Positions 1 through 37,633 of a DNA stretch of 37,633 nt are shown piece by piece. The DNA comes from an uncultured Erysipelotrichaceae bacterium. Lineage in GTDB: Bacteria > Bacillota_I > Bacilli_A > Erysipelotrichales > Erysipelotrichaceae. The notes beneath the pieces are model-generated. The model saw only the letters and a list, made by a program, of their open reading frames with translations, searched no databases and was not told the DNA's origin. The position numbers were made by a program, and so were the translations under genes. Where the stretch lies: positions 1-37,633 of the forward strand of contig CADBEA010000022.1 of assembly GCA_902793635.1 (NCBI GenBank). Direction: 5' to 3'. Every line of letters begins with the position of its first letter. The first letter of the stretch is position 1.

Positions 1-13
1 CTTGCATGCTCAT

Positions 14-22
14 ATTATACCA
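14..22 (-). promoter_or_regulatory. Outward extended -10 promoter element (left)
   Basis: Read on the minus strand, the segment gives TG-G-TATAAT, a perfect extended -10. It lies just past the terminator and points off the left end of the window. No convincing -35 is visible, because that position falls in the terminator hairpin. The gene it would serve lies outside the window. Confidence 0.45.
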
Positions 23-24
23 AG

Positions 25-60
25 TAAAAGCGCCTGTCCTTTATAGGTCAGACGCTTTTA
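25..60 (-). terminator. Terminator of the decarboxylase operon (copied from dacA)
   Basis: A 16-position stem, with one G-U pair and one A-A mismatch, closes a 4-nt ATAA loop and ends in TTTTA. It is the left copy of the dacA terminator. Here it lies downstream of the beta subunit gene, so that operon appears to use a terminator that came with the repeat. Confidence 0.8.
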
Positions 61-99
61 TTTCTTTTTTGACTGTTTCTTATTCGTTACAGCCCCTTT
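58..99 (-). pseudogene. 3' fragment of dacA (last 14 codons)
   Basis: Read on the minus strand, this encodes KGAVTNKKQSKKK and a stop, identical to the C-terminus of the intact carboxypeptidase at 36342-37577. It begins exactly at a codon boundary, 15 nt after the stop codon of the upstream oadB-like gene, and has no start codon. It is a rearrangement scar with no function as a protein. The intact gene at the other end of the window shows where it came from. Confidence 0.93.
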
Positions 100-114: not shown

Positions 115-1236
115 TCAGCCGCCGAATATCTTCAGCATGAAGCCGGCTGCGACAGCCGAGCCGATAACACCGGCAACGTTCGGACCCATGGCATGCATGA
201 GCAGGTAGTTGCTGGGGTTTGCCTTCTGGCCTTCGATCTGGCTGACACGGGCAGCCATCGGAACAGCCGATACACCGGCCGAACCAATCAGCGGGTTGAC
301 TTTGCCGCCGGTGACCTTGTACATGACCTTGCCGATCAGCAGACCGCCGATCGTCGAGAAGCAGAATGCGATCAGACCGAGGATAATGATCTCGATCGTG
401 CGGAATGTCAGGAAGGTCGGAGCAATCGCCTTGGCACCGACAGAGATGCCGAGGAAGATAATGACCATATTGGTCAGGGCATTCTGGGCGGTATCGCTCA
501 GTCTGTCCGTCAGACCTGTTTCCTTCAGCAGGTTGCCCATCATCAGCATGCCGACAAGCGGTGCTGTATCGGGAATCAGCAGAACGACGAATGTCGTAAC
601 TGCGATCGGGAAGATGATACGTTCCTTCTTGGAGACTTTACGGGCCTGCTTCATGACTGTCTTGCGTTCTGTTTCCGTTGTGACCATACGCATCAGCGGC
701 GGCTGGATCATCGGAATCAGAGCCATGTAGGAATAGGCAGCGATGGCAATCGCCGGCAGATATTCCATGGCCAGCTTGGACGCTGTCAGGATGGCAGTCG
801 GACCATCGGCACCGCCGATAACACCGATCGCCGCGGCAACTTTCGGATCAAAACCGAGCAGCAGAGCCATCAGGAAGGCTGTGAAGATACCGAACTGCGC
901 GCCAGCCCCCATCAGCAGCGAAGAAGGATTCGCAATCAGCGGTCCGAAGTCCGTCATGGCTCCGGTGCCCAGGAAGACCAGGGACGGATAGATACCATAT
1001 TCCACACCGAGTGAAAGATAGTGGACCAGACCGTCGGTAATGCCTGTCCGCGGCAGATTCGCCAGCAGTACACCGAAGGCGATGGGAACCATCAGCAGCG
1101 GTTCGTATTTTTTATGAATGCCCAGGTACAGCAGTACGAAGGCAACGATGATCATGACCAGATAACGCGGGTCTTCAATAAGACCGGCAAAACCTGATTC
1201 AGAGAAAATCTTTCCTAATATATCGAAAATATTCAT
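115..1236 (-). CDS. oadB: Sodium-pump decarboxylase beta subunit (OadB/GcdB family)
   Basis: This is the 373-residue integral membrane subunit of a biotin-dependent, Na+-translocating decarboxylase. In this family the beta subunit decarboxylates carboxybiotin and exports Na+. The sequence is almost entirely hydrophobic segments and contains the family hallmark GGADGPTAI, whose Asp is implicated in Na+ transport, plus the conserved tail region near ANPSNYLLMHAMGPN. Length is normal for the family. AGGAG sits 9 nt before the ATG. It is the last gene of a four-gene operon, 11 nt after the biotin carrier gene. It is followed after 15 nt by a scar of dacA and a terminator. The substrate (oxaloacetate rather than methylmalonyl-CoA or glutaconyl-CoA) is inferred from the alpha subunit. 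Confidence 0.93.
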   Translation of the reverse strand: MNIFDILGKIFSESGFAGLIEDPRYLVMIIVAFVLLYLGIHKKYEPLLMVPIAFGVLLANLPRTGITDGLVHYLSLGVEYGIYPSLVFLGTGAMTDFGPLIANPSSLLMGAGAQFGIFTAFLMALLLGFDPKVAAAIGVIGGADGPTAILTASKLAMEYLPAIAIAAYSYMALIPMIQPPLMRMVTTETERKTVMKQARKVSKKERIIFPIAVTTFVVLLIPDTAPLVGMLMMGNLLKETGLTDRLSDTAQNALTNMVIIFLGISVGAKAIAPTFLTFRTIEIIILGLIAFCFSTIGGLLIGKVMYKVTGGKVNPLIGSAGVSAVPMAARVSQIEGQKANPSNYLLMHAMGPNVAGVIGSAVAAGFMLKIFGG

Positions 1237-1247
1237 CAGATTTTCTC

Positions 1248-1634
1248 CTATTGAATGGTCGCGACAGTCATCTCAGATGTTACGGACGCTCCTTTGGCAA
1301 CAAGAACGGATGTAACCGTGCCTGCTTTCGGAGCCAGAACTTCATTTTCCATCTTCATCGCTTCCAGGATGAACAGAATGTCGCCTTCCTTAACGGTCTG
1401 ACCGACAGAAACACGGACATCCAGAATCGTACCCGGCATCGGTGCCTTGACCGGATCGCCAAGTCCTTCCGCGGCCGGTGCCGGAGCGGCAGCCGGAGCT
1501 GCGGCAGCCTGCGGTGCTGCGGTCGGAGCCTGGGTCGTTACCGGTTCCGCCGGACCTGCGTATACAGCTGTGGCCTGTCCTTTTTCGACTTCCACTTCAT
1601 ATTTCTTACCATTTAACGCAATGATGTATTTCAT
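1248..1634 (-). CDS. Biotin carboxyl carrier subunit of the decarboxylase
   Basis: This 128-residue protein carries biotin between the carboxyltransferase and the membrane subunit. The N-terminal part (residues 1-25) is a short beta segment. Residues 27-56 form an Ala/Pro-rich flexible linker, and residues 60-128 form the biotinyl domain with EAMKMENEV. The biotinylated lysine is K94. Such Ala/Pro linkers are typical of the gamma or delta carrier subunits of glutaconyl-CoA and methylmalonyl-CoA decarboxylases. AGAGGG precedes the ATG. It lies between the gamma-type small membrane subunit and oadB, in the same operon. Confidence 0.93.
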
Positions 1635-1651
1635 AAGTTATCCCTCTTTCT

Positions 1652-2131
1652 TCAATCCAGTGCCCGGATCGATTTGAAAACCAGTTCATTCAGCGGAATC
1701 TTCGTCTGCTCACAGACGATTGCCATCAGACATGCGGCTGTCTTTTCGTCGACATCGAACAGCAGCAGTTCGCCGCCGTAAGCTGCCTGCTGTACCGGTT
1801 CGCCAGCAGAAGCTTTCGCTGCCTTTTCAGCCGGTTTTGTTTCTGCCGGTTTTGTTTCTGCCGGTTTCGTTTCAACAGGTTTAGGTGTAAACATGCCGAT
1901 AACTTTCTGGATCGGTCTGTCCCATGTTTCGTCTCTCATCTCACCGAAAGCAAACTGTTTTGCCGGTTCCGATTCGACGATCTTCTGGTTTGTTTCCGAA
2001 ACTCTTTCGAAACTTTCAATGAAGGAAACCAGTTTGTCGATCAGAATCATGGCAAGCCAGAGAATGCAGAGCATCAGGAAGACGACTGAAATACCGGACA
2101 CGGCAATAATCAGCGCATCTGTAAACGGCAT
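1652..2131 (-). CDS. Sodium-pump decarboxylase gamma/delta-type membrane subunit (OadG-like)
   Basis: This 159-residue protein has one N-terminal transmembrane helix (about residues 8-33). It is followed by a charged segment with repeats of the type KPAET/KPVET (about residues 87-108) and a C-terminal patch ending near LVFKSIRALD. This layout fits the small OadG/MmdD subunits that tether the carboxyltransferase to the membrane. The ATG lies 1 nt past the stop of the alpha subunit gene, so translation is probably coupled. The assignment rests on context and topology more than on sequence motifs. Confidence 0.82.
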   Translation of the reverse strand: MPFTDALIIAVSGISVVFLMLCILWLAMILIDKLVSFIESFERVSETNQKIVESEPAKQFAFGEMRDETWDRPIQKVIGMFTPKPVETKPAETKPAETKPAEKAAKASAGEPVQQAAYGGELLLFDVDEKTAACLMAIVCEQTKIPLNELVFKSIRALD

Positions 2132-2132
2132 A

Positions 2133-3518
2133 TTACTCAGCCTCCGTTATTGTGTAGCTGACTTTCAGGGCTTTCTTTTCATCACGGCGGCGGAAGTATG
2201 CTTCAGCCTGCTGCGGGAAGGCAACATAGCTCAGCACGTCTTCCTCACTCTCGGCCATCTTTCCGAGATACGCGCGGGCGGCCGGAATTTCCGGCTCGAT
2301 CGTATCATCATAACGGCCTTCGTACGGCTTCTCGTCACCGAGCGCCAGTTTCATCAGTTCTTCGGAAATCGGAGCCGGAGAATGTCCGTATTCACCGCGG
2401 CAATAAGCCTTGACTTCCTTGGAAATGGACTTGTAGCGCTGGCCGGTCAGAACGTTGGAAACGGCCTGGGCGCCGACCATCTGGCTCATCGGAGTAACCA
2501 GCGGCGGATAACCCATATCCTTACGGACAAGCGGTGTTTCCTTCAGTACTTCATCCAGCTGATCCAGTTTATTGACGGCTGTCAGCTGGGAAATCAGGTT
2601 CGACAGCATGCCGCCCGGAATCTGATAGTTCAGAGCGTCGATCTTTGTTGTCAGAACAGATGGATTCAGTCCGCCTTCCTTCAGGAAGCGGGCCTGTACC
2701 GGCTTGAAATGGTCGTTGATCTTCTGGCAGACCTTCAGATCCACGCCTGTGTCATAGTCCATCTCATGCAGAGTATAGACAAGTGACTCGGTTGCCGGAT
2801 GGGAAGTGCCACCGGAGAAAATCGAGATCGCTGTATCAACACCGTCCGCACCTGCTTCAATGGCCTTCAGCAGAGTCATCGAAGCCAGACCGGTCGTTGA
2901 ATGGGAATGTACATATACCGGAATCTTGACGTCCTTCTTCAGTTCCTTTACCAGGTCATAGCAGACCTGCGGGCTCATGATGCCGGCCATATCCTTGATG
3001 CACAGGGAATGGCAGCCCATGGATTCCAGTTTCATACCCAGCTTGACATAGCTTTCAAATGTGTGGATCGGGCTGATCGTATAGCAGATCGTTCCCTGGG
3101 CATGGCCGCCGGCCTTCAGACATTCGTCAATGGCCGTTTCCATGTTCAGCGGGTCATTCAGGGCATCAAAGATACGGATGATGTCAATGCCGTTTTCCAC
3201 GGACTTGCGTACGAAAGCACGTACGGTATCATCAGAGTAATGTCTGTAGCCAAGAATGTTCTGACCGCGCAGAAGCATCTGAAGCTTGGTGTTCTTGACT
3301 TTCGAGCGGATAAAGCGAAGTCTTTCCCATGGATCTTCATCCAGATAACGCAGACAGGAATCAAATGTCGCGCCGCCCCATACTTCCAAGGAGTAGTATC
3401 CGGCCTGATCCATTGTTTCGAGAATATCTTCAAAGTCCGATCTCGGCATACGTGTGGCGATCTGTGACTGGTTGGCGTCACGCAGAACCACTTCGGTTAT
3501 ATTTACTTTTCTTTTCAT
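2133..3518 (-). CDS. oadA: Oxaloacetate decarboxylase alpha subunit / carboxyltransferase (OadA, pyruvate carboxylase B-type)
   Basis: This 461-residue carboxyltransferase moves CO2 from oxaloacetate to biotin. The N-terminal TIM barrel (about residues 1-290) carries the metal-site motif LRDANQSQ, the EVWGGATFD segment and the HSHSTTGLAS metal-ligand segment typical of the OadA/pyruvate carboxylase B family. A conserved C-terminal domain follows, but the usual fused biotinyl domain is absent because the carrier is a separate gene. An upstream in-frame ATG would add 8 residues. I chose position 3518 because AGGAG sits 9 nt before it and lies inside the longer version. It is the first gene of the operon. 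The complex probably couples oxaloacetate decarboxylation to Na+ export. Confidence 0.93.
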   Translation of the reverse strand: MKRKVNITEVVLRDANQSQIATRMPRSDFEDILETMDQAGYYSLEVWGGATFDSCLRYLDEDPWERLRFIRSKVKNTKLQMLLRGQNILGYRHYSDDTVRAFVRKSVENGIDIIRIFDALNDPLNMETAIDECLKAGGHAQGTICYTISPIHTFESYVKLGMKLESMGCHSLCIKDMAGIMSPQVCYDLVKELKKDVKIPVYVHSHSTTGLASMTLLKAIEAGADGVDTAISIFSGGTSHPATESLVYTLHEMDYDTGVDLKVCQKINDHFKPVQARFLKEGGLNPSVLTTKIDALNYQIPGGMLSNLISQLTAVNKLDQLDEVLKETPLVRKDMGYPPLVTPMSQMVGAQAVSNVLTGQRYKSISKEVKAYCRGEYGHSPAPISEELMKLALGDEKPYEGRYDDTIEPEIPAARAYLGKMAESEEDVLSYVAFPQQAEAYFRRRDEKKALKVSYTITEAE

Positions 3519-3551
3519 TTCTTTCTTCTCCTGAAAAAACAAATCTTCTCT

Positions 3552-3581
3552 ATAATAATAGATTTTTCATTTTTTTGTTAA
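3552..3581 (-). promoter_or_regulatory. Candidate promoter of the decarboxylase operon
   Basis: The AT-rich minus-strand segment has TTAACA at 3581-3576 and overlapping TATTAT hexamers at 3560-3552. Spacing is 15 or 18 bp depending on which -10 is used. It is the only good promoter-like sequence in the gap between the upstream terminator and oadA. Confidence 0.4.
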
Positions 3582-3637
3582 AGAAATTGCATTTTTCCTT
3601 TATTTATTACACTTTTTGACACTTTTTCATGAAAAAA

Positions 3638-3656
3638 GCGCTCTCATAAGGAGCGC
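3638..3656 (-). terminator. Terminator after the PRTase-like gene
   Basis: GCGCTC pairs with GAGCGC around a 7-nt loop. On the minus strand it is followed by six T residues. It ends the transcript of the gene at 3671-4315 and insulates the decarboxylase operon. Confidence 0.85.
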
Positions 3657-3670
3657 CTGATGATGTCTGT

Positions 3671-4315
3671 TTACTTAAAGAAGGAGATACCGTGTGTGTT
3701 GACGATGGCGTCCACCTTCCTGCCTTTTTTGCATAACGGGCATTCCAGCGAAGTCTTGCTCATGTAGTCATCCAGGATTCCTTCCGGTGTGAATACGGAA
3801 TAAACCGGATAGCCGAAGCATTCCTTGACCTTTGAGAAGATTGCGCATACACCGGCAACCGAACCACCGTAATACTGGATGGCTTCAATACCGCCGGCCA
3901 CGGTATAGCCGGTCGTCACCGATGCGGCAAGGATCAGAATATGCTTGTCTCTGATCATCGGCTGGATGTTGTCACGGAACAGCAGCTGACTGCCAGTCGT
4001 GTGTTCGGGTGTCACGACATAGATCGTTTTGTGATTATTCACACTGGAGAAGCCATGCCGGGTCAGTTCACTCGCCATGCATGCACCTACCACTTCCGTG
4101 CCGTCCAGACACAGGATCGTGTCAATGATCGTCGTATTGCTGAGATTTTCAGCGAGAATTCGCGCGGCTTCCTTTGCCTCGGAAAGACGATGCTTCGTAT
4201 AAGTCAGGTCAACATAATAATTGACATGGCTGTGGCTTGTCGCGAAATGGCCTTTCACGACCCGCAGCTTCAGTGATCCTTTCGGATTTGGATATTCCAT
4301 CATTTTCAATGCCAT
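3671..4315 (-). CDS. Phosphoribosyltransferase-like protein with altered PRPP loop (orotate PRTase-related)
   Basis: This 214-residue protein has the fold pattern of type I phosphoribosyltransferases. The region ILILAASVTTGYT (residues 126-138) aligns with the PRPP-binding loop, normally hydrophobic-DD-xxTTG. Here the two acidic residues are Ala-Ala. The C-terminus has CPLC (192-195), a possible metal site, and a conserved-looking THGISFF end. It is probably the kind of gene annotated as orotate phosphoribosyltransferase, but no other pyr biosynthetic gene lies nearby, so I do not call it pyrE. The start at 4315 is preferred because GGAGGG lies 5 nt upstream; an earlier ATG (4327) would overlap that site. 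It may be a purine- or PRPP-binding regulator rather than an enzyme. Confidence 0.75.
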   Translation of the reverse strand: MALKMMEYPNPKGSLKLRVVKGHFATSHSHVNYYVDLTYTKHRLSEAKEAARILAENLSNTTIIDTILCLDGTEVVGACMASELTRHGFSSVNNHKTIYVVTPEHTTGSQLLFRDNIQPMIRDKHILILAASVTTGYTVAGGIEAIQYYGGSVAGVCAIFSKVKECFGYPVYSVFTPEGILDDYMSKTSLECPLCKKGRKVDAIVNTHGISFFK

Positions 4316-4418
4316 AGAACCCTCCATATGAAATAAATGTCTGTCAATATTGTAACAGAATCAGTCAGTTTGGTGACAGCCGACGCGAAGAAAAAACATA
4401 GTTCAGTGATGAACTCTG

Positions 4419-5273
4419 TCAGGATTCCTCATAATCCGCGCATGCACGCATGCTTTCATAGAAGGCATACGGAACAAACAGATTGCCGCGGCCGCTGCCC
4501 AGTAAAATGCCCGGCTTGGTCTTGCCGTGAAAGTCGGAGCCGCCGCTCTGCTTCAAACCGAACTTTTCAGCCAGCCGGATGGCAGTATTGGTCATTTCCT
4601 CAGTAAACTCGGTATACCGTGTCTCGATTGCGTCCAGACCTGCCTTTTTGGCTTCCGGCAGGAATTCCTCCATTTCTTCCGGTGTCAGGTTCAGCAGCGG
4701 ATGCGCCATGATGGCGGTCGCTTTATATGTCTTGATGAAGCGGATGGCCGCGATGGAAGTGATCCGCTTGGCCGGAACGTAGAATCCGTGTTCAGGTTTC
4801 AGCAAAGTATCAAACGCTTCAGCAACGCTTTTCACATAGCCTTTTTTCATCAGAATACGGGCAATATGGGCACGGTTGATATCACCGTCGGTCAGCGCCG
4901 CGCACTCGTCATATGTGACTTCGTATCCGGCTTTATTCAGATTCTTGATCAGAATGTTGTTGCTGTTGATCTTGGCGATATGCGTCAGTTCCAGGAAGTC
5001 TTCGATTTCCTGCCAGTACTCGCGGCGGAAGAAAAGACCGACAATATGAATTTCCTTCTTGTGCCATTCCGTCGTGAATTCACAGCCCGGTATCGTAATG
5101 ACGTCGCTGTGCCGGCCGGCTTCCATAAATGCCGGAAGGCCCTGGGATGTGTTGTGATCCGTCAGAGCCAATGCTGAAATACCCAGCTCTTCAGCAAGGC
5201 GGACGAGTTCTTCCGGTGTTGAAGTACCGTCGGAGAACAGCGAATGACTGTGCAGATCACATCTTTTTTCCAT
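4419..5273 (-). CDS. PHP-domain metal-dependent phosphoesterase
   Basis: This 284-residue protein belongs to the PHP (polymerase and histidinol phosphatase) family related to YciV/RNase AM. The N-terminus has the H-x-H metal motif (DLHSHSLFSDG, residues 6-16) and TDHN, then GCEFTTEW, HIVGLFF and AHPLLNLTP, and near the end SGGSDFHGKTKP. All are expected metal ligands in order. In the family it acts on small phosphoesters or as a 5'-3' RNA or oligonucleotide exonuclease; the substrate here is not visible. ATG (5273) and an upstream GTG (5282) are both possible starts, and neither has a strong Shine-Dalgarno sequence. It is transcribed towards the PRTase-like gene, 103 nt away. Confidence 0.88.
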   Translation of the reverse strand: MEKRCDLHSHSLFSDGTSTPEELVRLAEELGISALALTDHNTSQGLPAFMEAGRHSDVITIPGCEFTTEWHKKEIHIVGLFFRREYWQEIEDFLELTHIAKINSNNILIKNLNKAGYEVTYDECAALTDGDINRAHIARILMKKGYVKSVAEAFDTLLKPEHGFYVPAKRITSIAAIRFIKTYKATAIMAHPLLNLTPEEMEEFLPEAKKAGLDAIETRYTEFTEEMTNTAIRLAEKFGLKQSGGSDFHGKTKPGILLGSGRGNLFVPYAFYESMRACADYEES

Positions 5274-5413
5274 ATATAACACTTTATCACAATTGTTATA
5301 AAAGAGAGTCGTGTTCCTTATTCATAAATTCAGTACCAGGAAAACATCCGTTCCGTCAGTTTCGGCACTAACAATATAGGATTGTAGTTTCTGCTTTTGA
5401 CGCAGATTGCGTG

Positions 5414-5419
5414 TACAAT
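5414..5419 (+). promoter_or_regulatory. Candidate -10 of the jelly-roll/macro/sirtuin operon
   Basis: TACAAT at 5414-5419 lies 25 nt before the chosen ATG (5445). A TTGACG at 5397-5402 is only 11 bp upstream, too close to be its -35, so the -35 is uncertain. Confidence 0.3.
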
Positions 5420-5444
5420 AATGTCAGAAAACGGAGAAAAGACA

Positions 5445-6062
5445 ATGAGAAAAATACCTACTGATACAGCACCATTTAACAGTATTCATACTGACATTCA
5501 GAATGTGACGATCGACGGCGAACCGGCAGTCCGTGTCACCAAAAAAGACAAACTGATGCAGTTTGACGAAAACACGATCGTTACCGTGAAGGATCTTGAT
5601 TTTCATAACGGCACGATCAGAGTGAAAATGCTGAGCCGTCTTCTGCCGGACGCACCTGATTTCGCCAGAGGGTTTATCGGCATCGTCTACCGGGTCAGTC
5701 CGGACACCAGTGAGTTTGAATCTTTCTATATCCGGCCGACAAACGGCATGACGGATGACCCTGTCCGCAAGGCCCATGGCTGCCAGTATTTCTCCTACCC
5801 GGGCTATACATTCGCTTATTTCCGGGAATTCGGAATCACCGGATATGAAGCACCGATGAACTACGGTCTTGATGAATGGGTGCAGCTGACAGCTGTCATC
5901 CAGGATGAAAAAGCATCCTTTTATCTGAATGACGAACCGGATCCGGTTCTGACTGTCGATCCTATGAAGCACGGAAAAGACGCGCATGGCAGTGTCGGCT
6001 TCTTCTCCGAGATCGGCACTGAGGCATTCTTCAAAGACCTGGAAATCGAAATTGCGGATTGA
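5445..6062 (+). CDS. Jelly-roll (LamG/concanavalin-like) domain protein of unknown function
   Basis: This 205-residue protein has no signal peptide and no transmembrane segment, so it is probably cytoplasmic. The sequence reads as a beta-sandwich: FDENTIVTVKDLDFHNG at the start, GFIGIVYRV in the middle, WVQLTAVIQDEKASFYLND near residue 160, then GSVGFFSEIGTEAFFKDLEI at the end. This pattern is typical of LamG/DUF1080-type carbohydrate-binding or hydrolase-like folds. I cannot see catalytic residues with confidence. GGAGA lies 7 nt before the ATG at 5445; earlier TTG or ATG codons lack a site. It is the first gene of a run with the macrodomain gene 21 nt downstream, so a link to ADP-ribosylation or sugar metabolism is possible but unproven. 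Confidence 0.6.
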   Translation: MRKIPTDTAPFNSIHTDIQNVTIDGEPAVRVTKKDKLMQFDENTIVTVKDLDFHNGTIRVKMLSRLLPDAPDFARGFIGIVYRVSPDTSEFESFYIRPTNGMTDDPVRKAHGCQYFSYPGYTFAYFREFGITGYEAPMNYGLDEWVQLTAVIQDEKASFYLNDEPDPVLTVDPMKHGKDAHGSVGFFSEIGTEAFFKDLEIEIAD

Positions 6063-6083
6063 TCTGCACAAAGAGCTGATAAT

Positions 6084-6866
6084 ATGGAGCAACGCGAAAG
6101 AAGACAGTATCTGATCCGCTATCTTCTGAATGAACAGGACAGATATCAGGACATACAGATTCCTGCCGGAACAAATGAACAGAAGCAGCTGCTGCGTGCC
6201 TTGATGAATGTCCGCATGCCGCAGGAAATCAGCGAAGAATTCCTGTCCGTGCAGGACGATTATCTTGCCGAAGCAGTCCGGCAGAAAGGAATTACCGATT
6301 ATAAAAGTCTTGTCCCGGTCAAAGACGGCATCTATCTCTGGCAGGGAGACATCACCACGCTGAAATGCGATGCCATTGTCAATGCGGCAAACAGCGGCAT
6401 GACCGGCTGCTATGTGCCATGTCACAACTGTATCGACAACTGCATACATACGTATGCGGGCATTCAGCTGCGCAGGAAATGCGCGGAAATTATGAGCCTT
6501 CAGGGTCATGAAGAAGAAACTGGCAGAGCGAAAATCACCCCTGCCTACAATCTTCCCTGTTCCTATGTGATTCATACCGTCGGTCCGATCATCTATGACA
6601 CCGTCAGAGCAGAAGATGAAAGACTTCTTTCATCCTGTTACCGCTCATGTCTTGCGGCTGCCTCGCAGAACAAGCTGCACAGCATTGCCTTCTGCTGCAT
6701 ATCGACGGGAGAATTCCGTTTCCCGAACCGGCGGGCTGCCGAAATCGCCGTGCAGACAGTCGATGAATACCGCAAAGAGACAGATTCAGAAATCGAGGTG
6801 ATCTTCAATGTTTTCAAGGACAAAGACTATGACATCTACACCGAATTACTCCGCCGGCATCCATAG
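6084..6866 (+). CDS. Zinc-type macrodomain protein (probable ADP-ribosyl hydrolase)
   Basis: This 260-residue protein has an N-terminal helical extension (about 1-80) and a macrodomain (about 85-255). Visible motifs are QGDITTLKCDAIVNAAN (ADP-ribose binding), the Cys/His-rich loop with C109, C113, H114, C116, C120 and H122, then YVIHTVGP and STGEFRFPNRRAAEIA. The Cys-His-Cys loop matches the zinc-dependent macrodomains found next to class M sirtuins in staphylococci and streptococci, which remove ADP-ribose placed by the sirtuin. The downstream sirtuin gene overlaps it by 59 nt. The usual partners, a lipoyl carrier GcvH-L and the ligase LplA2, are absent from the window. Its ribosome binding site is weak. 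Confidence 0.9.
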   Translation: MEQRERRQYLIRYLLNEQDRYQDIQIPAGTNEQKQLLRALMNVRMPQEISEEFLSVQDDYLAEAVRQKGITDYKSLVPVKDGIYLWQGDITTLKCDAIVNAANSGMTGCYVPCHNCIDNCIHTYAGIQLRRKCAEIMSLQGHEEETGRAKITPAYNLPCSYVIHTVGPIIYDTVRAEDERLLSSCYRSCLAAASQNKLHSIAFCCISTGEFRFPNRRAAEIAVQTVDEYRKETDSEIEVIFNVFKDKDYDIYTELLRRHP

Positions 6867-7761
6867 ACTCGCTGACGTTCTGCAGAACTGTGATTCCGTT
6901 GTCATCGGAGCCGGAGCCGGTCTTTCGACGGCAGCCGGTTTTATCTATACCGGTGAACGTTTTGCAAAATATTTCGCGGATTTTATTGAGAAATACCATT
7001 TTACGGATATGTATACCGGCGGTTTCTATCCTTTCCCCAGTCAGAATGAATTCTGGGCTTACTGGTCCCGGTATATTTACATCAACCGTTATATGAACGC
7101 CCCGCTGCCGGTTTATGAAGACCTGCTGAAACTGGTCAGCGCCAAAGATTATTTTGTCATCACAACAAATGTCGACCATTGTTTCCAGAAAGCCGGTTTT
7201 GACAAGAAAAGGCTTTTCTATACCCAGGGTGACTACGGTCTCTTCCAGTGCAGTGAACCATGTCATCAGGAAATATATGACAACCGGGAAATGATCACCC
7301 GGATGGTTCTGGCGCAGGGTTTTGAAATCGATGAAGAAGAGAATCTGATCATTCCGGATGAAAAGGCGCTTTCCATGGAAGTGCCGGATCATATGTTTCC
7401 GATATGTCCGGTCTGCGGCAAACCGCTGACGATGAATCTCAGATCGGATGACCGCTTTGTCGAAGATGAAGGCTGGCACGCCGCCGCGGAAAGATACCAG
7501 AATTTCCTGCGCACCCGGATCACCGGGAAAATTCTGTTCCTGGAAATCGGTGTCGGCTATAATACGCCTGTCATCATCAAATACCCCTTCTGGCAGATGA
7601 CCGCCGGCAATCCGGAAGCCGTATATGCCTGTCTTAGTTATGACAGTGCCGCCTGTCCGAAAGAAATTGAAAAACAGTCTGTCTGTATTGAAGGCGATGC
7701 CGCGAAAATTCTGAAGGATCTCGCTGAAGCCATCAGGCAGATCCCGGAAGCAGGTTTATGA
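6808..7761 (+). CDS. Class M sirtuin (SirTM), Sir2-family ADP-ribosyltransferase
   Basis: This 317-residue protein has the Sir2 NAD-binding motif GAGAGLS (34-40), the TTNVDHCFQ segment (119-127, in place of the canonical TQNIDxLH), and two Cys pairs likely to bind zinc (C148/C152 and C200/C203). It ends its NAD-binding core with LEIGVGYNTP. Class M sirtuins use NAD+ to ADP-ribosylate a lipoylated GcvH-L carrier in known systems and are paired with macrodomain proteins, as here. Start choice: 6808 has GAGGTG 7 nt upstream inside the macrodomain gene, and 6829 has AAGGA 8 nt upstream; either is plausible. The substrate in this organism is unknown, because no carrier gene is nearby. Confidence 0.9.
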   Translation: MFSRTKTMTSTPNYSAGIHRLADVLQNCDSVVIGAGAGLSTAAGFIYTGERFAKYFADFIEKYHFTDMYTGGFYPFPSQNEFWAYWSRYIYINRYMNAPLPVYEDLLKLVSAKDYFVITTNVDHCFQKAGFDKKRLFYTQGDYGLFQCSEPCHQEIYDNREMITRMVLAQGFEIDEEENLIIPDEKALSMEVPDHMFPICPVCGKPLTMNLRSDDRFVEDEGWHAAAERYQNFLRTRITGKILFLEIGVGYNTPVIIKYPFWQMTAGNPEAVYACLSYDSAACPKEIEKQSVCIEGDAAKILKDLAEAIRQIPEAGL

Positions 7762-7807
7762 TTTTATCCTGACCTGTCAGAAGATATGCAGAAAGGTTTT
7801 AACAGCT

Positions 7808-8575
7808 ATGATCGTCAATTATCACACCCATACCGCCCGCTGCGGACACGCGGACGGGGCTGATCGGGAATATGTGGAAACCGCCGTCGCACGGGGACTG
7901 AAGACCATCGGTTTCTCCGACCATGTGCCTATGCCCTTCCCTGACGGACATGAATCCGGTTTTCGGGTTCCCATCAGAAAACTGGAAGATTACGTGCAGA
8001 GTGTTCTTTCTCTGCGTGACGAATTTCGAAATGACATTGAAATCCTGCTTGGTTTTGAAGCGGAATATTATCCCGATCTCTTTGCCGGCCTGCGGGACCT
8101 TCTCTCTCCCTATCCGGTGGACTATCTCCTGCTTGGTCAGCATTTCAACGACAGCCGGGAAGCAATTTACAACAGCCGTCCGCAGTCGGATGCCAAAGCA
8201 TTGGCTGCTTATGTGGACCAGGTGATCGCCGGCATGGAAACCGGCAGTTTCACCTATGTCGCCCATCCGGACCTGTTCCGCTTCAAAGGGCCTGATGAGA
8301 TCTATGAGAAGGAAATGAGACGTATCTGCCAAAGGGCAGTCACTTTGAATATTCCCCTGGAAATCAATATCCTTGGCCTGCGGCAGGGAAGAAACTATCC
8401 GGATGATCGTTTCTGGACCATCGCCGCCGAGGAAAAATGCAAAGTCATTCTGGGCTGTGATGCCCATACACCCGACGATGTCGCCCATCCGGATCAGCTG
8501 AAAAAAGCCATGGCCTACGCCGCCCGCTTCGGCCTGGTTCCCGAAACCGAAACAGTTCTCAGAAAACCATTCTGA
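7808..8575 (+). CDS. hisK: Histidinol-phosphatase, PHP family (HisK-type)
   Basis: This 255-residue protein has the PHP metal motifs HTHTARCGHADG at the N-terminus, FSDHVPMP, GFEAEYYP, GQHF, AHPDLFRFKG, LEINILGLRQG and GCDAHTP near the end. Order and length match HisK-type histidinol-phosphatases, which release phosphate from L-histidinol phosphate. No other his gene is in the window, so another small phosphoester substrate remains possible. It is 46 nt after the sirtuin gene, on the same strand, and is followed by a terminator. It may be the last gene of the sirtuin operon. Confidence 0.88.
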   Translation: MIVNYHTHTARCGHADGADREYVETAVARGLKTIGFSDHVPMPFPDGHESGFRVPIRKLEDYVQSVLSLRDEFRNDIEILLGFEAEYYPDLFAGLRDLLSPYPVDYLLLGQHFNDSREAIYNSRPQSDAKALAAYVDQVIAGMETGSFTYVAHPDLFRFKGPDEIYEKEMRRICQRAVTLNIPLEINILGLRQGRNYPDDRFWTIAAEEKCKVILGCDAHTPDDVAHPDQLKKAMAYAARFGLVPETETVLRKPF

Positions 8576-8587
8576 ATCACAGAAAAA

Positions 8588-8617
8588 AGGCCTCGTATCC
8601 CCGCGGACATGAGGTCT
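8588..8617. terminator. Bidirectional terminator between hisK and the MFS gene
   Basis: A 13-position stem with two G-U pairs and one mismatch surrounds a 4-nt CCGC loop. The minus-strand side ends in six T residues, strong for the MFS gene. The plus-strand side has only a short T run. The two genes converge here. Confidence 0.75.
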
Positions 8618-8636
8618 TTGTCATTGATAAGAGAGT

Positions 8637-9941
8637 TTATTCGGAATCCTGTCTGACAAACCACACAGGAATGACAGCCGGCAGCGCCGCGATGGCAGCC
8701 GCCAGAAACAAAGTATAAGGCGGAACAAAATCAGCACCGTTCATACCCATGGCATCCAGGCCGATCAGCAATGAAATGATTGGTCCGACGATCATCGGAA
8801 TCAGCACCATGAAGCACATACGCACACCCTGGAAACGGCCTTCCGTACCTTCGGGCAGATAATCCTGGAACGAAGACGTAAACGCCCCGGTCAAAGACAG
8901 AATGCCGCCCATCATGAGCACGCCGCCGACGTACAGAATCACTGTCTTCAATACACCGTCGGTAAACTGAATCGCCCAGAATGAGAGAATGCCCAGAATC
9001 ATGATGGCAAGCAGCGGATAATAGAAATGCTTGCGTCCTTTCCTGTCAAACAGGACACCCATCACAGCCGTAAATACAGCAGCGCCGACAATGATCACCG
9101 CCATCGGAATCACGAAACCATCACCCAGGCCAAGTGTGACGATCAGGAAATTGATGAGATAGGAGAAGAACGTCTGCTGGGCAATACCGACGATACAGGC
9201 GGTCGCCAGACAGATATAGATCATCCTGTTGTTTCTGATGACATCGCGGCGAAAGCCATAGAACGTATCACTGAGATAATTCTTCCCTTCTGCTTTTTTC
9301 AGATCTGGTGCATCTTCCAGAACAAACAGGGCCAGAATGCCGGCAATGATTGGTATGATGCCGAGAATGATGAAGAAACGGGCATTGCTGGGATTGGCGG
9401 AATTATACAGACTGCCCAGTCCGACAAATACGATGACAACTGCGATAACCGGCAGGATGGCAAGAATGGCATTCAGTTTGCCGCGGTTGGTTTTATCTGT
9501 CACGTCGGCCACCCAGGCATTGAACGCCGCATCATTGGACGTTGATCCGGCAAAGGTCATCAGACAGTCAAAGATGATCAGCAGCGCGGCGATCAGTCCG
9601 ACTCTTGAAGTTTCCGCCTTCATCGGCAGCAGCGCAAACAGCATGATTGTCAGTCCCCAGAAGATATAACCGAAGGCAATGAACGGTTTCCGTTTTCCGG
9701 TGCGGTCACTGAGGCTGCCCGCGAAGATCGTCGTTACCGTGGCGGCGATGGCCGAGAGAATCACCATCAGTGTCGTGACACCGTAGGACATGTCCGGCCG
9801 GCCGGAATTGGCGAATATATCCTGGGCGAATGTCGCGAAATACATATTCTCAACGATCCATGCGATCTGTCCGACCAGTCCGAAAAAGACTGCCGAAAAC
9901 CAGATCTTCGCGCCAAGCGGCGTTGCTTTTTTCTCTTCCAT
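8637..9941 (-). CDS. MFS transporter, sugar:cation symporter type
   Basis: This 434-residue protein has about 12 hydrophobic segments. It contains two MFS motif A sequences, SLSDRTGKRKPF after helix 2 and LFDRKGRKHF in the second half. Such proteins import sugars or glycosides without phosphorylation. The start at 9941 is chosen because GGGGAAGGA lies just upstream; an in-frame ATG 16 codons earlier has no site. It lies downstream of the GH4 gene on the same strand, but a terminator sits between them, so it may have its own promoter or depend on read-through. A role in supplying the glycosidase is inferred from proximity. Confidence 0.85.
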   Translation of the reverse strand: MEEKKATPLGAKIWFSAVFFGLVGQIAWIVENMYFATFAQDIFANSGRPDMSYGVTTLMVILSAIAATVTTIFAGSLSDRTGKRKPFIAFGYIFWGLTIMLFALLPMKAETSRVGLIAALLIIFDCLMTFAGSTSNDAAFNAWVADVTDKTNRGKLNAILAILPVIAVVIVFVGLGSLYNSANPSNARFFIILGIIPIIAGILALFVLEDAPDLKKAEGKNYLSDTFYGFRRDVIRNNRMIYICLATACIVGIAQQTFFSYLINFLIVTLGLGDGFVIPMAVIIVGAAVFTAVMGVLFDRKGRKHFYYPLLAIMILGILSFWAIQFTDGVLKTVILYVGGVLMMGGILSLTGAFTSSFQDYLPEGTEGRFQGVRMCFMVLIPMIVGPIISLLIGLDAMGMNGADFVPPYTLFLAAAIAALPAVIPVWFVRQDSE

Positions 9942-10079
9942 GATCCTTCCCCTTTTCTGTATATGATCCAGCAGAATACAAACAGGCATTTTTCTGTTTC
10001 TTTACATATTATTGTATTCCTGTATGGCAATGGAAATACAGATATGCGATACAGTTTTTCTTTCTGCCGGCAAAAAAAA

Positions 10080-10101
10080 CAGACGCTCCTCGGAACGTCT
10101 G
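10080..10101 (-). terminator. Terminator after the GH4 glycosidase gene
   Basis: CAGACGTTC pairs with GAGCGTCTG (one G-U) around CGAG, followed by eight T residues on the minus strand. It lies between the GH4 gene and the MFS gene. Confidence 0.88.
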
Positions 10102-10120
10102 CTGTTTCAAAACGGGAATA

Positions 10121-11512
10121 TCATAATCCCTGCGCACAGAGCTGTCTGACTTTTTCGTCATGGATGACAACACCCTGTTCCTTCAGTTCAGCGATCTTCG
10201 CTTTGAACTGCGGCAGGTATTTTTCGTTGGCGACAAGCATTTCATCCATCATCGCCTTCGCATTGTGACCATGACGGATCAGCGGATTGATCTGGAAAGC
10301 CTTCATCAGACTGCCGTAGTTTCCGCTCACTGCCGCCTCTATGACACATTCTTCCATCGCCTTCATGATCTGCAGCCAGCCTCTTTCTGACGGTTCGAAA
10401 TCACCCCATACAAGCGGTGAGGCACCTTCGGCATTGATCAGCGAACTGACTTCGACAATACTGTCATACGGCAGACAGGATATTGCGCCTTTGTTTCGGG
10501 TATTTACGACCATGAGGCTGCCGGTGTTGTTGTAAATGTTGTGGATGGTCTCACAGGCCGCGTCGCTGTAGTATGCGCCGCCTCTTTTCTTCAGCAGTTC
10601 CGGCATTTCATGAAGGGATGGATCCTTGTACAGTTCAAAGAGTTCCTCCTCCACTTCTCTGACATTCTCAGCTCTGGTCGTATGATGCCGGTAATCGTCC
10701 AGCTGGCGGGCCAGCATTTCTTCGTAGAGAAAATAGTAGCGGTGATAGCTGAAAGGAATACAGTTCATCGCTTCCATCTGCTCGCCAATATAGCTTTCAT
10801 TATGCACATTGGCCATGTTGGTTCGATCATCTTCACTCATCTTCGCAAGAATATCTTTGGTCAGTTCCTTGCCGTTCTTATCCCAGATCCGGTGATAGTG
10901 GAAATGATTGAGACCGGCAAACCGCCAGGTATAGTCATCCTGTTTTCCGCCGAGCATTTCCGGTTCTTCCTTCATAACGGTGATCGGTCCGTTGCATAAG
11001 CCGATGCATTTTTCAAAACCGGCTTTTCTGATCACTGATTCAGTGATCATGCCGGAAGGATTTGTGAAGTTGATCAGCCAGGCATCCGGGCAGAGTTCCC
11101 GCATGTCCTTCACGATATCGAGAATGACCGGAATCGTCCGGAGGGCTTTGAATATACCGCCGGCTCCGTTGGTTTCCTGACCGATCTGGCCATAGGAAAG
11201 CGGAATGCGTTCATCCTTGATTCTGGCATTGAGCAGGCCCACCCGGAACTGGGTCGTGACAAAATCAGCGTCTTTAAGAGCTTCTCTTCTGTCGAGGGTC
11301 AGATGGACTTTCACATCATATGGAGAAGCATCCCACATGCGCTGGGCAAGAGCCCCGACGATCTTCAGTTTTTCTTCTCCTTCCGGAATATCGACCAGCC
11401 AGATTTCCCTGATTGGAAGTGTTTCATAGCGTTTGATAAACCCCTGCATCAATTCCGGGGTATAACTGGAGCCGCCGCCGATGGTGACGATTTTAAGACC
11501 GTTCTTATTCAT
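10121..11512 (-). CDS. GH4-family glycosidase (6-phospho-beta-glucosidase-like)
   Basis: This 463-residue enzyme belongs to glycoside hydrolase family 4, which uses NAD+ and a divalent metal in a redox-elimination mechanism. The N-terminus has the Rossmann motif IGGGSSYTPEL (11-21). NFTNPSGMITE, the specificity motif CNGP (173-176) and NHFHYH (202-207) follow. In GH4 the CN-x-P type motif is associated with 6-phospho-beta-glucosidases. That implies a PTS-imported substrate, yet the neighbour is an MFS symporter. The start at 11512 follows GGGAG; an upstream in-frame codon lacks a site. A small membrane protein gene lies upstream behind its own terminator. Confidence 0.88.
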   Translation of the reverse strand: MNKNGLKIVTIGGGSSYTPELMQGFIKRYETLPIREIWLVDIPEGEEKLKIVGALAQRMWDASPYDVKVHLTLDRREALKDADFVTTQFRVGLLNARIKDERIPLSYGQIGQETNGAGGIFKALRTIPVILDIVKDMRELCPDAWLINFTNPSGMITESVIRKAGFEKCIGLCNGPITVMKEEPEMLGGKQDDYTWRFAGLNHFHYHRIWDKNGKELTKDILAKMSEDDRTNMANVHNESYIGEQMEAMNCIPFSYHRYYFLYEEMLARQLDDYRHHTTRAENVREVEEELFELYKDPSLHEMPELLKKRGGAYYSDAACETIHNIYNNTGSLMVVNTRNKGAISCLPYDSIVEVSSLINAEGASPLVWGDFEPSERGWLQIMKAMEECVIEAAVSGNYGSLMKAFQINPLIRHGHNAKAMMDEMLVANEKYLPQFKAKIAELKEQGVVIHDEKVRQLCAQGL

Positions 11513-11578
11513 GAATATAAACTCCCATGTATCTCTGCTGTCATTATGCCACATTGATACAGAGCTGCCGAAAAAAAA

Positions 11579-11595
11579 GCCGGTTCATTCCCGGC
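11579..11595 (-). terminator. Terminator after the small membrane protein gene
   Basis: GCCGG pairs with CCGGC around a 7-nt loop and is followed by eight T residues on the minus strand. Confidence 0.82.
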
Positions 11596-11613
11596 AGGTT
11601 CAGATGCGGTATG

Positions 11614-12003
11614 TCAGCCTGGCAGACCCAGGTAGGTAATGATGCAGGCAATGACACTGACAGCTATGGCAGCACCCGGCATCCACAGGATATCCGTCCG
11701 CTTGTTTGCCAATACGGAAATGCCACCGATAATACCAAATGCGAAACCGATCAGAGAAAATGTAAAACCAAACAGTGACAGAATAATGAAACCGCCGATT
11801 TCAAGTACAGCCTGATTATTCAGATGTGTCGATCCGACCGGATTGGCTATCATAAGCGGGCTCAGGATGCCGCAGACAAGAGCGAGCACCGCAAATATCA
11901 GGGCAATCGTCGACAGGACCTTTGGTGCCCCTTTTTTCTTTTCGGACTGAACCAGATCAGATCCGTTTCCTCCACGTTTCTGATTTGCGAAATGTTGCGT
12001 CAT
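11614..12003 (-). CDS. Small membrane protein of unknown function
   Basis: This 129-residue protein starts with a polar, Lys-rich stretch (residues 1-28). Three hydrophobic segments follow, near 29-53, 66-95 and 105-126. No signal cleavage site or conserved catalytic motif is visible. The pattern resembles small DUF4190-like membrane proteins, but I do not recognise the family with certainty. AAAGG lies about 10 nt before the ATG. It stands alone between a divergent PLP-enzyme gene and the GH4 gene, with its own terminator. Confidence 0.6.
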   Translation of the reverse strand: MTQHFANQKRGGNGSDLVQSEKKKGAPKVLSTIALIFAVLALVCGILSPLMIANPVGSTHLNNQAVLEIGGFIILSLFGFTFSLIGFAFGIIGGISVLANKRTDILWMPGAAIAVSVIACIITYLGLPG

Positions 12004-12088
12004 ATATGTAAAACCTTTCTTTCATTCAGTATTCTCAGTGATTATATCTCAATACCGGCAAATGATTAAATATATTATCTGGCTATAA

Positions 12089-12217
12089 AGACTCTGTGCC
12101 CGGCTGTCTGATGGACCTACATACCAATATAGCCACAAGAAAGAGTTTCCGGAAGCGGTGGAAGAAGTGTTCGGGAAAGTCTATAATGACCCTGTGAAAA
12201 AATACAGGAGTGAATGA
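12089..12217 (+). pseudogene. 3' remnant of an unidentified gene, coupled to the PLP enzyme gene
   Basis: An open frame of 42 codons follows an in-frame TAA and has no start codon. It reads like a normal protein tail (TYQYSHKKEFPEAVEEVFGK, then a Lys-rich end). Its TGA stop (12215-12217) shares one base with the ATG of the next gene, the classic TGATG coupling arrangement. The AGGAG used by that gene lies inside this frame. These features suggest the end of a formerly intact upstream gene whose 5' part has been lost. The family is not recognised. Confidence 0.45.
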
Positions 12218-13473
12218 TGATTACAGATCAGATCAATAAAGAACTGCTGGCTCTGGCCAGACAGTCAGATATCGAACTGGAACCGGTATACCGTCGGATC
12301 GATGCCGTATGCATGGCCAATTCCGACCGGATCCTTTCCGCCTTTATTGCCAACAATGTGTCCTATACCGACTTCGCGGATATCAACGGCTACGGAAACT
12401 ACGATGCCGGAAGAGACAAACTGGAGCGTATTTTCGCGGACGTCCTCGGCAGTGAAGATGCCCTGGTGCGGCCGCAGATCATGAGCGGAACAAATGCCCT
12501 TTACATTGCCTTTACCGGTCTTCTGAAACACGGTGACACGATGATTTCCCTGACCGGCACACCCTATGATTCCCTGCAGGAAATGATCGGTATCAGCGGC
12601 AGTTCTTCCCAGTCTTTAAAAGCATATGGCGTTCGTTATGAACAGATCGATCTCATCAATGACGAATTCGACGAGGATACAATTGTAAACCGGCTTGCCC
12701 GGAACGATGTTCGTCTCGTGGAGATCCAGCGCTCGCGCGGCTATTCATCACGCCGCTCTCTCACAGTAGATCAGATCGGTCATATCATCGCAAGAATCCG
12801 GGAAGTGAACAAGGATGTCGTCATCATGGTCGACAACTGCTATGGCGAACTGGCGGAAGAAAAGGAACCGGGACATGTCGGTGCCGATATCACCGTCGGT
12901 TCCCTTATGAAAAACCTCGGCGGCGGTATCGCCCCGACCGGCGGATATATCGCCGGCCGCAAAGACCTGATCTCTGAAATCGCCGAACGTTTCTCAGCCC
13001 CCGGACTCGGCAAGGAACAGGGAGCCAATTTCAATCTCAACAATGCCTTCTTCAAAGGCCTGTTTCTGGCTCCGGGTGCTGTCCGCAGCGCCATGAAGAC
13101 AGCTGTCTTCTCCGCCTGGATGCTGGAGAAGCTCGGCTATGCGGGTGTGTCTCCGCGCTATGACGAATACCGCACGGATATCATCCAGACTGTGGAACTT
13201 GGCACAAAAGAAAACCTTGTCCGCTTTACCCAGGGACTGCAGGAAGCTTCCCCGATTGATTCCTTCGTCAAGGTCCTGCCGGCTCCGATGCCCGGTTACC
13301 CGTTTGATGAAGTCATGGCCTGCGGTGCCTTTACTCAGGGCAGCACGATCGAACTGAGTGCTGACGCACCGGTCATTCCTCCATACACACTTTATATGCA
13401 GGGCGGCATGACACCGGAATACGGAAAACTCTGTGTTCTTCTCGCCCTTTCCAAAATAAAAGAGAGCTGCTAA
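12217..13473 (+). CDS. PLP-dependent methionine gamma-lyase family protein (YnbB/aluminium-resistance type)
   Basis: This 418-residue, fold type I PLP enzyme belongs to the Met_gamma_lyase/YnbB family. Visible parts are GYGNYDAGRDKLE near residue 58, MSGTNALYIAF (89-99), the Asp of IMVDNCYGE (about 206) that supports the PLP ring nitrogen, and SLMKNLGGG with the likely Schiff-base lysine K232. Members are annotated as methionine gamma-lyase or aluminium resistance protein, but the physiological reaction is not settled. The second of two tandem ATG codons (12217) fits AGGAG with 6 nt spacing and overlaps the stop of an upstream remnant. It converges with the SDR gene, overlapping it by a few bases. 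Confidence 0.87.
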   Translation: MITDQINKELLALARQSDIELEPVYRRIDAVCMANSDRILSAFIANNVSYTDFADINGYGNYDAGRDKLERIFADVLGSEDALVRPQIMSGTNALYIAFTGLLKHGDTMISLTGTPYDSLQEMIGISGSSSQSLKAYGVRYEQIDLINDEFDEDTIVNRLARNDVRLVEIQRSRGYSSRRSLTVDQIGHIIARIREVNKDVVIMVDNCYGELAEEKEPGHVGADITVGSLMKNLGGGIAPTGGYIAGRKDLISEIAERFSAPGLGKEQGANFNLNNAFFKGLFLAPGAVRSAMKTAVFSAWMLEKLGYAGVSPRYDEYRTDIIQTVELGTKENLVRFTQGLQEASPIDSFVKVLPAPMPGYPFDEVMACGAFTQGSTIELSADAPVIPPYTLYMQGGMTPEYGKLCVLLALSKIKESC

Positions 13474-13479
13474 CAGCTC
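13464..13479 (-). terminator. Terminator embedded in overlapping convergent stop codons
   Basis: GAGCTG pairs with CAGCTC around a 4-nt loop. That loop contains the stop codons of both convergent genes. Only the minus-strand side is followed by a T-rich stretch (TCTTTTATTTT), so it should end the SDR transcript. That T-rich stretch lies within the last codons of the opposing gene. Confidence 0.6.
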
Positions 13480-14216: not shown

Positions 14217-14224
14217 GGAAAAAA

Positions 14225-14243
14225 AGAGCCCTGATCAGGCTCT
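14225..14243 (-). terminator. Terminator after efp, ending at the SDR start
   Basis: AGAGCC pairs with GGCTCT, with the efp stop codon inside the loop and seven T residues on the minus strand. The T tract ends 2 nt before the SDR start codon. Confidence 0.85.
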
Positions 14244-14792: not shown

Positions 14793-14843
14793 AGTATTAC
14801 CACCTTATATAATTTACATCGATTATTCTATCAACTTATTTCC

Positions 14844-14872
14844 ATCATAGCAAACGCAAAGTATTCTGCCAG
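14844..14872 (-). promoter_or_regulatory. efp promoter
   Basis: The -35 is CTGGCA (14872-14867) and the -10 is TATGAT (14849-14844), with TG one base upstream. Spacing is 17 bp. It would give a leader of about 45 nt. Confidence 0.6.
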
Positions 14873-14879
14873 ACTGATA

Positions 14880-15157
14880 CAGTGTAAAAAACAGGAACTG
14901 ATTGCTGTTTATCCCTCTGTATCCGCCTTCACTCCAACCCGCAAATTTCAGATTTCTGCTATCTGATTATCTGCCATTTTACGCTTTAGAACAGTTGACT
15001 TCTGAACGGTTTGAACTGATTCAATCTGGTCAGTTCTTTTTCTTGCAGTACCCATTTCCAGATTGGGTGGCTCCCGCCACACCGGAATATTCAATAAAAC
15101 CGTGAAGTGATATGACCCTTTTTGTCAATATGAAGCCGGGTTACGTTTTCGCCTAAA
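14880..15157. other. Gene-free stretch between efp and the GGGtGRT gene
   Basis: Together with the efp promoter and the flanking terminator, this fills a 422-bp gap. I see no gene with a start and ribosome binding site. On the minus strand there are short open frames without good starts, one of about 35 codons beginning near 15053. There is a small hairpin GTGGC-TCCC-GCCAC at 15067-15080. It looks like decayed or unconstrained sequence. Confidence 0.4.
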
Positions 15158-36341: not shown

Positions 36342-37577
36342 ATGAAAAAGAAGAAAACCCTGAGACGAATCCTGCTGAGCGCACTCACTGCCGCGTCTGT
36401 CCTGTTTTCCCCCGCCCCGGTTCTGGCTGAGGGAACGGATGACACCCTGGCAGACAGCCTGCGCAGTAAATATGTCATCATCATGGATGCTGATACCGGT
36501 CAGGTTTTATCCGAAAAAAATCCTGACGAGCGGATGTATCCGGCTTCCATGACCAAGATGATGACCGCCATTGTCGCCATTGAGAATATCAAGGACTATG
36601 ACGAAAGAATCACGATCACCGAAGAAATGACCGCCGGACTGGCGGAAGAGAATGCCTCCCGTATCGCTTATGAACCGGGTGATGATCCGATCATCCGCGA
36701 TCTGCTGTACGCGGTCGCCCTGCCTTCGGCAGCTGATGCGACAAACGCCCTGGCTTTGAAAGTATCCGGCAGTATCGATGCTTATGTCGACCTGATGAAC
36801 ATGAAGGCCAAGGCATTGGGCATGACAAACACCCACTTCGTCAATACTTCAGGTTTGCACGATCCTGATCATTATTCGACAGCCAGAGACATGGCGAAAC
36901 TGCTGGACTACTGCCTGCAGAACGAAATGTTCCGGAATATCTTCAGCACCAATGAATATCATCTGGGAAGTGTCGCGACATTCCCGGACGGCGTCGATAT
37001 CTATTCCACTGCCACCATGGCAGCGGACCGTCAGGAAGTTGATATCTCGGAAATGATCGGCGGCAAGACCGGGTTTACCTACGAAGCCGGCTACTGTCTG
37101 GCATACTGGACGAAGATCAACAACCTGAATCTGATCGTTGTCACCGGCAATGCCAGCGATGTCATGGAAGATCCCATGCATGTCGTGGATGCCAGTGAAA
37201 CGATGCAGAAACTGCACAGCTGGCACCGCAAGACCTTCTTTACTTCCGGCGAAGTACTGCATACGATCACTGTCAATCATTCCTTTGACAAGGAAATGCT
37301 GTATATCGAAGCTCCCCAGGAGCTGACCCTGGATCTGCCGGAAGAATGGAAAACATCCATGACCATTACCCTGCCGGACGAAGTCAAGGCAAGCTATGAA
37401 GAACGGGAAGTCACCGGCGCCCTGATTGTCAAAGGCGGTGATCACGTCCTCTTCAGCAAAGATTACACGCTGACCATTCCGCGGGAGAAAAACTTCTTCA
37501 TGCGCATATATCTGCGTATCCGTTCCTGGTTTTCAAAAGGGGCTGTAACGAATAAGAAACAGTCAAAAAAGAAATAA
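36342..37577 (+). CDS. dacA: D-alanyl-D-alanine carboxypeptidase (DacA/PBP5-like)
   Basis: This 411-residue serine peptidase trims the terminal D-Ala of peptidoglycan. The signal peptide (about 1-29) has a KKKK start and ends near VLA-E. The SxxK motif is S69-MTK72 (PASMTK), and the KTG motif is at 242-244. The middle motif, normally S-x-N, reads S129-A-A131. A C-terminal beta domain is followed by an amphipathic tail (NFFMRIYLRIRSWF) and a Lys-rich end. No Shine-Dalgarno sequence precedes the ATG. The last 14 codons and terminator are copied inverted at the left end of the window. Confidence 0.93.
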   Translation: MKKKKTLRRILLSALTAASVLFSPAPVLAEGTDDTLADSLRSKYVIIMDADTGQVLSEKNPDERMYPASMTKMMTAIVAIENIKDYDERITITEEMTAGLAEENASRIAYEPGDDPIIRDLLYAVALPSAADATNALALKVSGSIDAYVDLMNMKAKALGMTNTHFVNTSGLHDPDHYSTARDMAKLLDYCLQNEMFRNIFSTNEYHLGSVATFPDGVDIYSTATMAADRQEVDISEMIGGKTGFTYEAGYCLAYWTKINNLNLIVVTGNASDVMEDPMHVVDASETMQKLHSWHRKTFFTSGEVLHTITVNHSFDKEMLYIEAPQELTLDLPEEWKTSMTITLPDEVKASYEEREVTGALIVKGGDHVLFSKDYTLTIPREKNFFMRIYLRIRSWFSKGAVTNKKQSKKK

Positions 37578-37610
37578 AAGCGTCTGACCTATAAAGGACA
37601 GGCGCTTTTA
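37575..37610 (+). terminator. Terminator of dacA
   Basis: The stem is as in the left copy (16 positions, one G-U, one A-A mismatch) and begins at the stop codon of dacA. TTTTA follows. Confidence 0.85.
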
Positions 37611-37612
37611 CT

Positions 37613-37621
37613 TGGTATAAT
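37613..37621 (+). promoter_or_regulatory. Outward extended -10 promoter element (right)
   Basis: TG-G-TATAAT directly follows the dacA terminator and points off the right end, mirroring 14-22. Confidence 0.5.
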
Positions 37622-37633
37622 TTGAGTATGCAA

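Follow-up and report, generated by a model that had tools for sequence, protein, structure and literature searches.

Both ends of the window, the 37,633-base stretch of DNA that makes up the whole of contig C22 in a Solobacterium-like draft genome (79 contigs, 2.43 Mb), very probably consist of the left end of a multi-copy, ~1.8-kb IS1182-family element that replaces terminator hairpins and that broke up a short-read assembly made with k=99. Five copies of it are present in this genome. In related genomes, all five insertion loci are occupied by an intrinsic terminator.

A dispersed element at the contig ends

Comparison of the window with itself confirms the inverted repeat given in the preliminary description. 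Its exact part, 86 bp long, pairs 14-99 with 37536-37621 in inverted orientation, and 2-99 matches 37536-37633 in 96 of 98 bases, with two mismatches and with similarity reaching both contig edges. Chance alone would not be expected to yield an exact 86-bp match within 37.6 kb. Across all contigs of the genome, 98-99 bases of the repeat recur at five contig ends (C22L, C22R, C55L, C48R and C33R), which makes it a dispersed repeat where contigs stop, not a pair private to the C22 block. Two alleles of this left end are present, one shared by C22L and C55L and the other by C22R, C48R and C33R; we infer that the former goes with two truncated copies and the latter with three complete ones.

A search of relatives places the same sequence inside contigs of other genomes. 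Contig C27 of genome G005, which matches the public record JAFRJJ010000008.1 (Solobacterium MAG), holds an intact element of 1810 bp (L049:863-2672) with the ends GGGGCTGTAACG...CGTTACAGCCCC. Between its terminal inverted repeats (GGGGCTGTAACG) lies one transposase of 517 amino acids, starting ATG CAA. This single gene carries the Pfam domains DUF772 (PF05598), DDE_Tnp_1 (PF01609) and DDE_Tnp_1_6 (PF13751), and the G005 protein scores 294.2 bits against the NCBIfam IS1182 model NF033551 (cut-off 270). Judged by its sequence, the repeat of the window is the left end of such an element, comprising inverted repeat, hairpin, promoter and transposase start codon. In its own genome, the transposase occurs only as fragments, 77-79% identical to the G005 copy. 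An exact 24-base pattern gave 0 matches in GTDB genomes, and blastn against plasmids was likewise without a match.

The element proper ends at position 96 and begins at 37539, and the window is cut within the transposase start region at both ends. The first copy (1..96, minus strand) lies downstream of oadB (115..1236, minus strand; Na+-transporting oxaloacetate decarboxylase beta subunit, Pfam OAD_beta, 504 bits). It is 92% identical to the intact element, and the same 99 bases stand at C55L. The second copy (37539..37633, plus strand) is 94% identical to the intact element, shares its bases with C48R and C33R, and follows dacA (D-Ala-D-Ala carboxypeptidase; Pfam Peptidase_S11, 184 bits). A TATAAT box at 14..19 (minus) and 37616..37621 (plus), read from the sequence, is presumed from its position to be the transposase promoter; the start codon (ATG CAA ...) at 5..7 (minus) and 37628..37630 (plus) is the one used in the intact copy (L049:951). 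The outermost repeat bases, 97-99 and 37536-37538, are A/T tracts of the target sites. Compared with the empty sites in G011, G017 and G045, 97..99 (AAA on the minus strand) is the A-tract remnant of the oadB terminator, the T-tract of which lies on contig C60. The A-tract at 37535..37538 (plus) is the corresponding remnant at dacA; G045 has the identical flank TTTTCAAAA, there followed by a 26-bp hairpin.

A search within the same genome places the right end of the element at three contig ends (C24L, C50L and C26R), while two further contig ends start inside the transposase, C60L leaving the element at position 642 and C35L at 903. With five left ends matched by as many right sides, the genome holds five copies. 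As the full interior of the element is absent from all contigs of this genome, the pairing of left and right ends relies on synteny with relatives, not on sequence running through the element; the engB/C50 pairing rests partly on elimination. The longest prefix shared between contig ends is 99 bases in three of four groups and 97 in the fourth, and a de Bruijn graph with k=99 should produce prefixes of exactly 99 bases where it forks. The earlier suggestion that the assembly stopped at these two points on account of the repeat therefore holds, the repeat being a multi-copy insertion sequence that forks such a graph.

Three further remnants were observed. At oadB, the copy is cut at base 642 and joined directly to the terminator T-tract (G000:C60:1-99), so that the lost right part ended at the element's own boundary. 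Genome G034 contains elements of ~65 bp (L045:2328, L046:3716 and L047:3917) that share the terminal repeat, GGGGCTGTAACGAATAAG...CGTTGCAGC, but lack a transposase; they are likely miniature derivatives, themselves terminator-like in look. A lone right-end relic in the genome under study (G000:C25:12449-12521, L057) is flanked by A and T tracts and folds back on itself, as though it had stayed behind as a terminator.

Gene order and competing readings

The closest relative, G045, has ~91% DNA identity; the relatives compared here are other species, ~9% different. In G045, window positions 26502-37539 are followed directly by the sequence of contig C24 (G045:C4, 105937 vs 105912), and 120-14899 are directly preceded by that of contig C60 (G045:C1, 107684 vs 107646). 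G011 and G017 have the same genes next to dacA and oadB. This conservation marks the joints dacA/C24 and oadB/C60 as ancestral, and the gaps of some 25-40 bases at these joints in the relatives as the element sites of the present genome. The genes of C26 and C48 are adjacent in G011, G017 and G045, and pfp and pepF, on C55 and C35 here, lie close together in G011.

The preliminary description read the inverted duplication as the footprint of a staggered-break inversion of the 37.6-kb block. Two oppositely oriented copies, one at each end, agree with such an event, but the sequence is the left end of a transposase element and occurs in five copies at five unrelated loci. Moreover, in G045 and G011 only an ordinary terminator separates dacA from the C24 genes and oadB from the C60 genes. 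The comparison of gene order around oadB and dacA that had been proposed as a check finds no exchange of flanks at either end relative to G011, G017 and G045; synteny is unchanged on both sides, and an inversion scar, highly improbable on these grounds, was rejected. A related idea, that recombination between the opposite copies keeps the 37-kb block in both orientations in the population, draws on their common length of ~0.6 kb (the oadB copy being truncated at 642) and on their opposed direction. Any pair among the five copies is equally able to recombine, however, so that this block is not special, and the flanks fit the ancestral pairing on both sides, though a flip after insertion would be invisible in contigs. 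We regard such flipping as unlikely.

The practically negligible case is that of a purely artificial duplicate, such as contig-end chimerism or adapter-like sequence. Both copies do coincide with contig ends, and their shared length equals the assembly k, yet independent genomes (G005 and G045) carry the same sequence inside contigs with the transposase attached, and the flanks match true terminator sites in relatives. A multi-copy IS1182-family element explains the contig ends and removes the false lead of a flipping 37-kb block.

Gene order relative to G045 breaks within the window, somewhere from 14.9 to 26.5 kb, and not at the ends: G045:C1 is collinear with 120-14899, and G045:C4 with 26502-37539. 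Synteny between G011 and the window ends at 5294 and resumes at 25025. The AAA ATPase gene at 25025-26515 is 98% identical to G045:C1:156768-158258 in surroundings of 88-91%, which suggests recent transfer or recombination.

Terminator hairpins at the insertion sites

The empty sites of relatives are intrinsic terminators for five of five insertion loci. Folding of twelve such sequences, drawn from G045, G011 and G017 and representing each of the five loci, gives a hairpin with a T-tract behind it in every case (z -2.2 to -5.4); the fold z-scores at dacA are modest (-2.2 to -3.0). The dacA site reads TGGTTTTCAAAA-GACGACTGAATCATGAATCAGCCGTC-TTTTTTCTTTTTCA in G045 and TGGTTTTCAAAA-IS-TTTTTTCTTTTTCA here; in short form, CAAAA[GACGACTGAATCATGAATCAGCCGTC]TTTTTTCTTTTTC of the relative corresponds to CAAAA[IS]TTTTTTCTTTTTC. 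On this alignment, a complete copy stands at dacA where a 26-bp terminator hairpin was. The C26/C48 site is CTGAA-AGCACATCCCGTGATGTGC-TTTTTT in G045 and CTGAA-IS-TTTTTT here, and the engB site is TTGAAAA-GGTTTCCGAAAAGGAAACC-TTTTTTTGACAGAT in G045 and TTGAATAA-IS-TTTTTGACAGAT here. Relative to G045, the stem-loop is deleted without target duplication at all three. At oadB and pfp, the right end of the element is truncated, and in relatives the left junction again coincides with an intrinsic terminator; with two of the five copies truncated, replacement of the whole hairpin is demonstrable for three sites. As the relatives are other species, the presence of each terminator in this strain's ancestor is something we infer from them. 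Terminators cover ~1.1% of the window in a simple scan; if the elements are confined to intergenic DNA, five hits out of five are less striking, though still unexpected.

At the same pfp terminator, G045 has a copy truncated in another way (G045:C27, L048), representing either an old shared insertion or a repeat strike on the same site. In a second family, copies in G091 stand directly behind ntpD and a histidine-kinase gene, where congeneric genomes have terminator hairpins.

The flanks of further copies have the same character. In 48 copies, many of them related and hence not 48 independent cases, the six bases 5' of the element are 69% A (baseline 34%) and the six bases 3' are 75% T (baseline 35%). 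These A-rich and T-rich flanks are the remains of terminators once the stem is gone. Complementarity between left and right flanks in 53 IS1182-family copies is not above chance (7.36 vs 7.29 when re-paired, 1747 of 5000); given this lack of residual stem pairing, removal of the hairpin seems to extend as far as the A/T tract.

Very probably, then, the element, which has one DDE transposase, enters the hairpin of an intrinsic terminator and removes the stem-loop, leaving an A-tract on one side and a T-tract on the other without target duplication. At oadB, a copy now truncated at base 642 occupies the terminator. As for the chemistry, the proposal made for IS1272 would have a cruciform extruded, strand transfer at its 3' feet, and the hairpins lost afterwards. 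The cruciform-attack model is adopted here by analogy. According to Wan et al. 2017 (PMC5678879), IS1272 likewise deletes a hairpin and makes no target duplication, and the proposal given there is that its 3' ends attack the 3' feet of both cruciform hairpins, which are then trimmed. Furi et al. 2016 (PMC4923244) reported that TnSha1 and IS1272 remove stem-loops by blunt deletion and, from RNA-seq, identified several of their targets as terminators.

The element shares with staphylococcal IS1272/TnSha1 an IS1182-family transposase, hairpin targets that are often terminators, deletion of the stem-loop, lack of target duplication, and a target without primary-sequence consensus other than structure. 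It differs in its Erysipelotrichaceae host and in inverted repeats that begin GGGGCTGTAACG; furthermore, all five sites here are terminators, whereas IS1272 takes other hairpins too. The REP-targeting insertion sequences described by Tobes and Pareja 2006 (PMC1525189) also have an intergenic palindrome as target, but they hit repeated sequence families, while the sites here have a common structure and not a common sequence. Other IS1182-family elements, from Bacillales, Lactococcus and Erysipelotrichia (inverted repeats GAGGCTGGGAC or GAGGCTGTAAC), resemble the present one in their length of ~1.8 kb, their hairpins at both ends, and an A-rich left and T-rich right flank. The transposases from Bacillales and Lactococcus are ~30-36% identical to that of the element, and the end-hairpin sequences differ.

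Gene ends and hairpins supplied by the element

At dacA (36342..37577, plus strand), the reading frame runs into the element and the protein ends ...WFSK-GAVTNKKQSKKK-stop, its last 12 residues (GAVTNKKQSKKK) and stop codon being encoded by the insertion sequence. The native end is ...WFSKDD* in G011 and G017, with the same DNA in G045. The repeat is thus not the end of dacA, as had been supposed; the gene is intact as a frame, but its tail is donated by the element. The convergent short-chain dehydrogenase gene on C24 stops within the right end of the element (...KKMKKKK-GAVTNR-stop), and the enolase gene of G091 (...KIKKGL-stop) also has its stop inside an element.

Behind the donated stop codons sits the terminator-like hairpin of the left end, at 26..60 (minus) and 37576..37609 (plus). 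Folding against shuffles gives -26.3 kcal/mol for both, with z -6.2 for the former (15-99, minus strand) and z -5.5 for the latter. A second hairpin forms from the right end and the adjoining host T-tract (z -5.1 to -6.7, both directions). In 12 distinct elements, both ends fold better than shuffles, and the end hairpins from Bacillales, Lactococcus and Erysipelotrichia are mutually unrelated in sequence. A looser scan of our own detects terminator-like hairpins in the left ends of 43/48 (forward) and 46/48 (reverse) of the partly related copies and in the right ends of 40/48 and 46/48; the same scan of two interior segments yields no such hairpins. A stricter terminator pattern scan of the intact copy returns two weak sites, near the chance number, so the end-hairpin results rely on folding with shuffles and on the looser scan.

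With terminator-like hairpins at both ends, each insertion may swap one terminator for another. We give about an even chance to the model that IS1182-family elements exchange terminators in general: the host hairpin would be deleted, and the element's own two-way terminator-like hairpins and early stops at each end would preserve termination of the adjacent genes and guard the transposase against read-in. The excerpts of the two IS1272/TnSha1 papers (PMC5678879, PMC4923244) make no mention of end hairpins or of IS-donated stop codons, and the open-access literature searched contained no description of terminator-like hairpins at both ends of IS1182 elements.

Stem-loop-replacing transposition is little known and has so far been documented for staphylococcal IS1272; the sites described here, with their exact empty counterparts, add gut Erysipelotrichaceae. 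If terminator exchange is true, the 3' ends of genes would be a safe niche for the whole IS1182 family. It would explain how such elements lie directly behind housekeeping genes without obvious harm, as at dacA, pfp and engB here and at the enolase and V-ATPase subunit D genes in a relative, and it would provide a simple rule for locating them.
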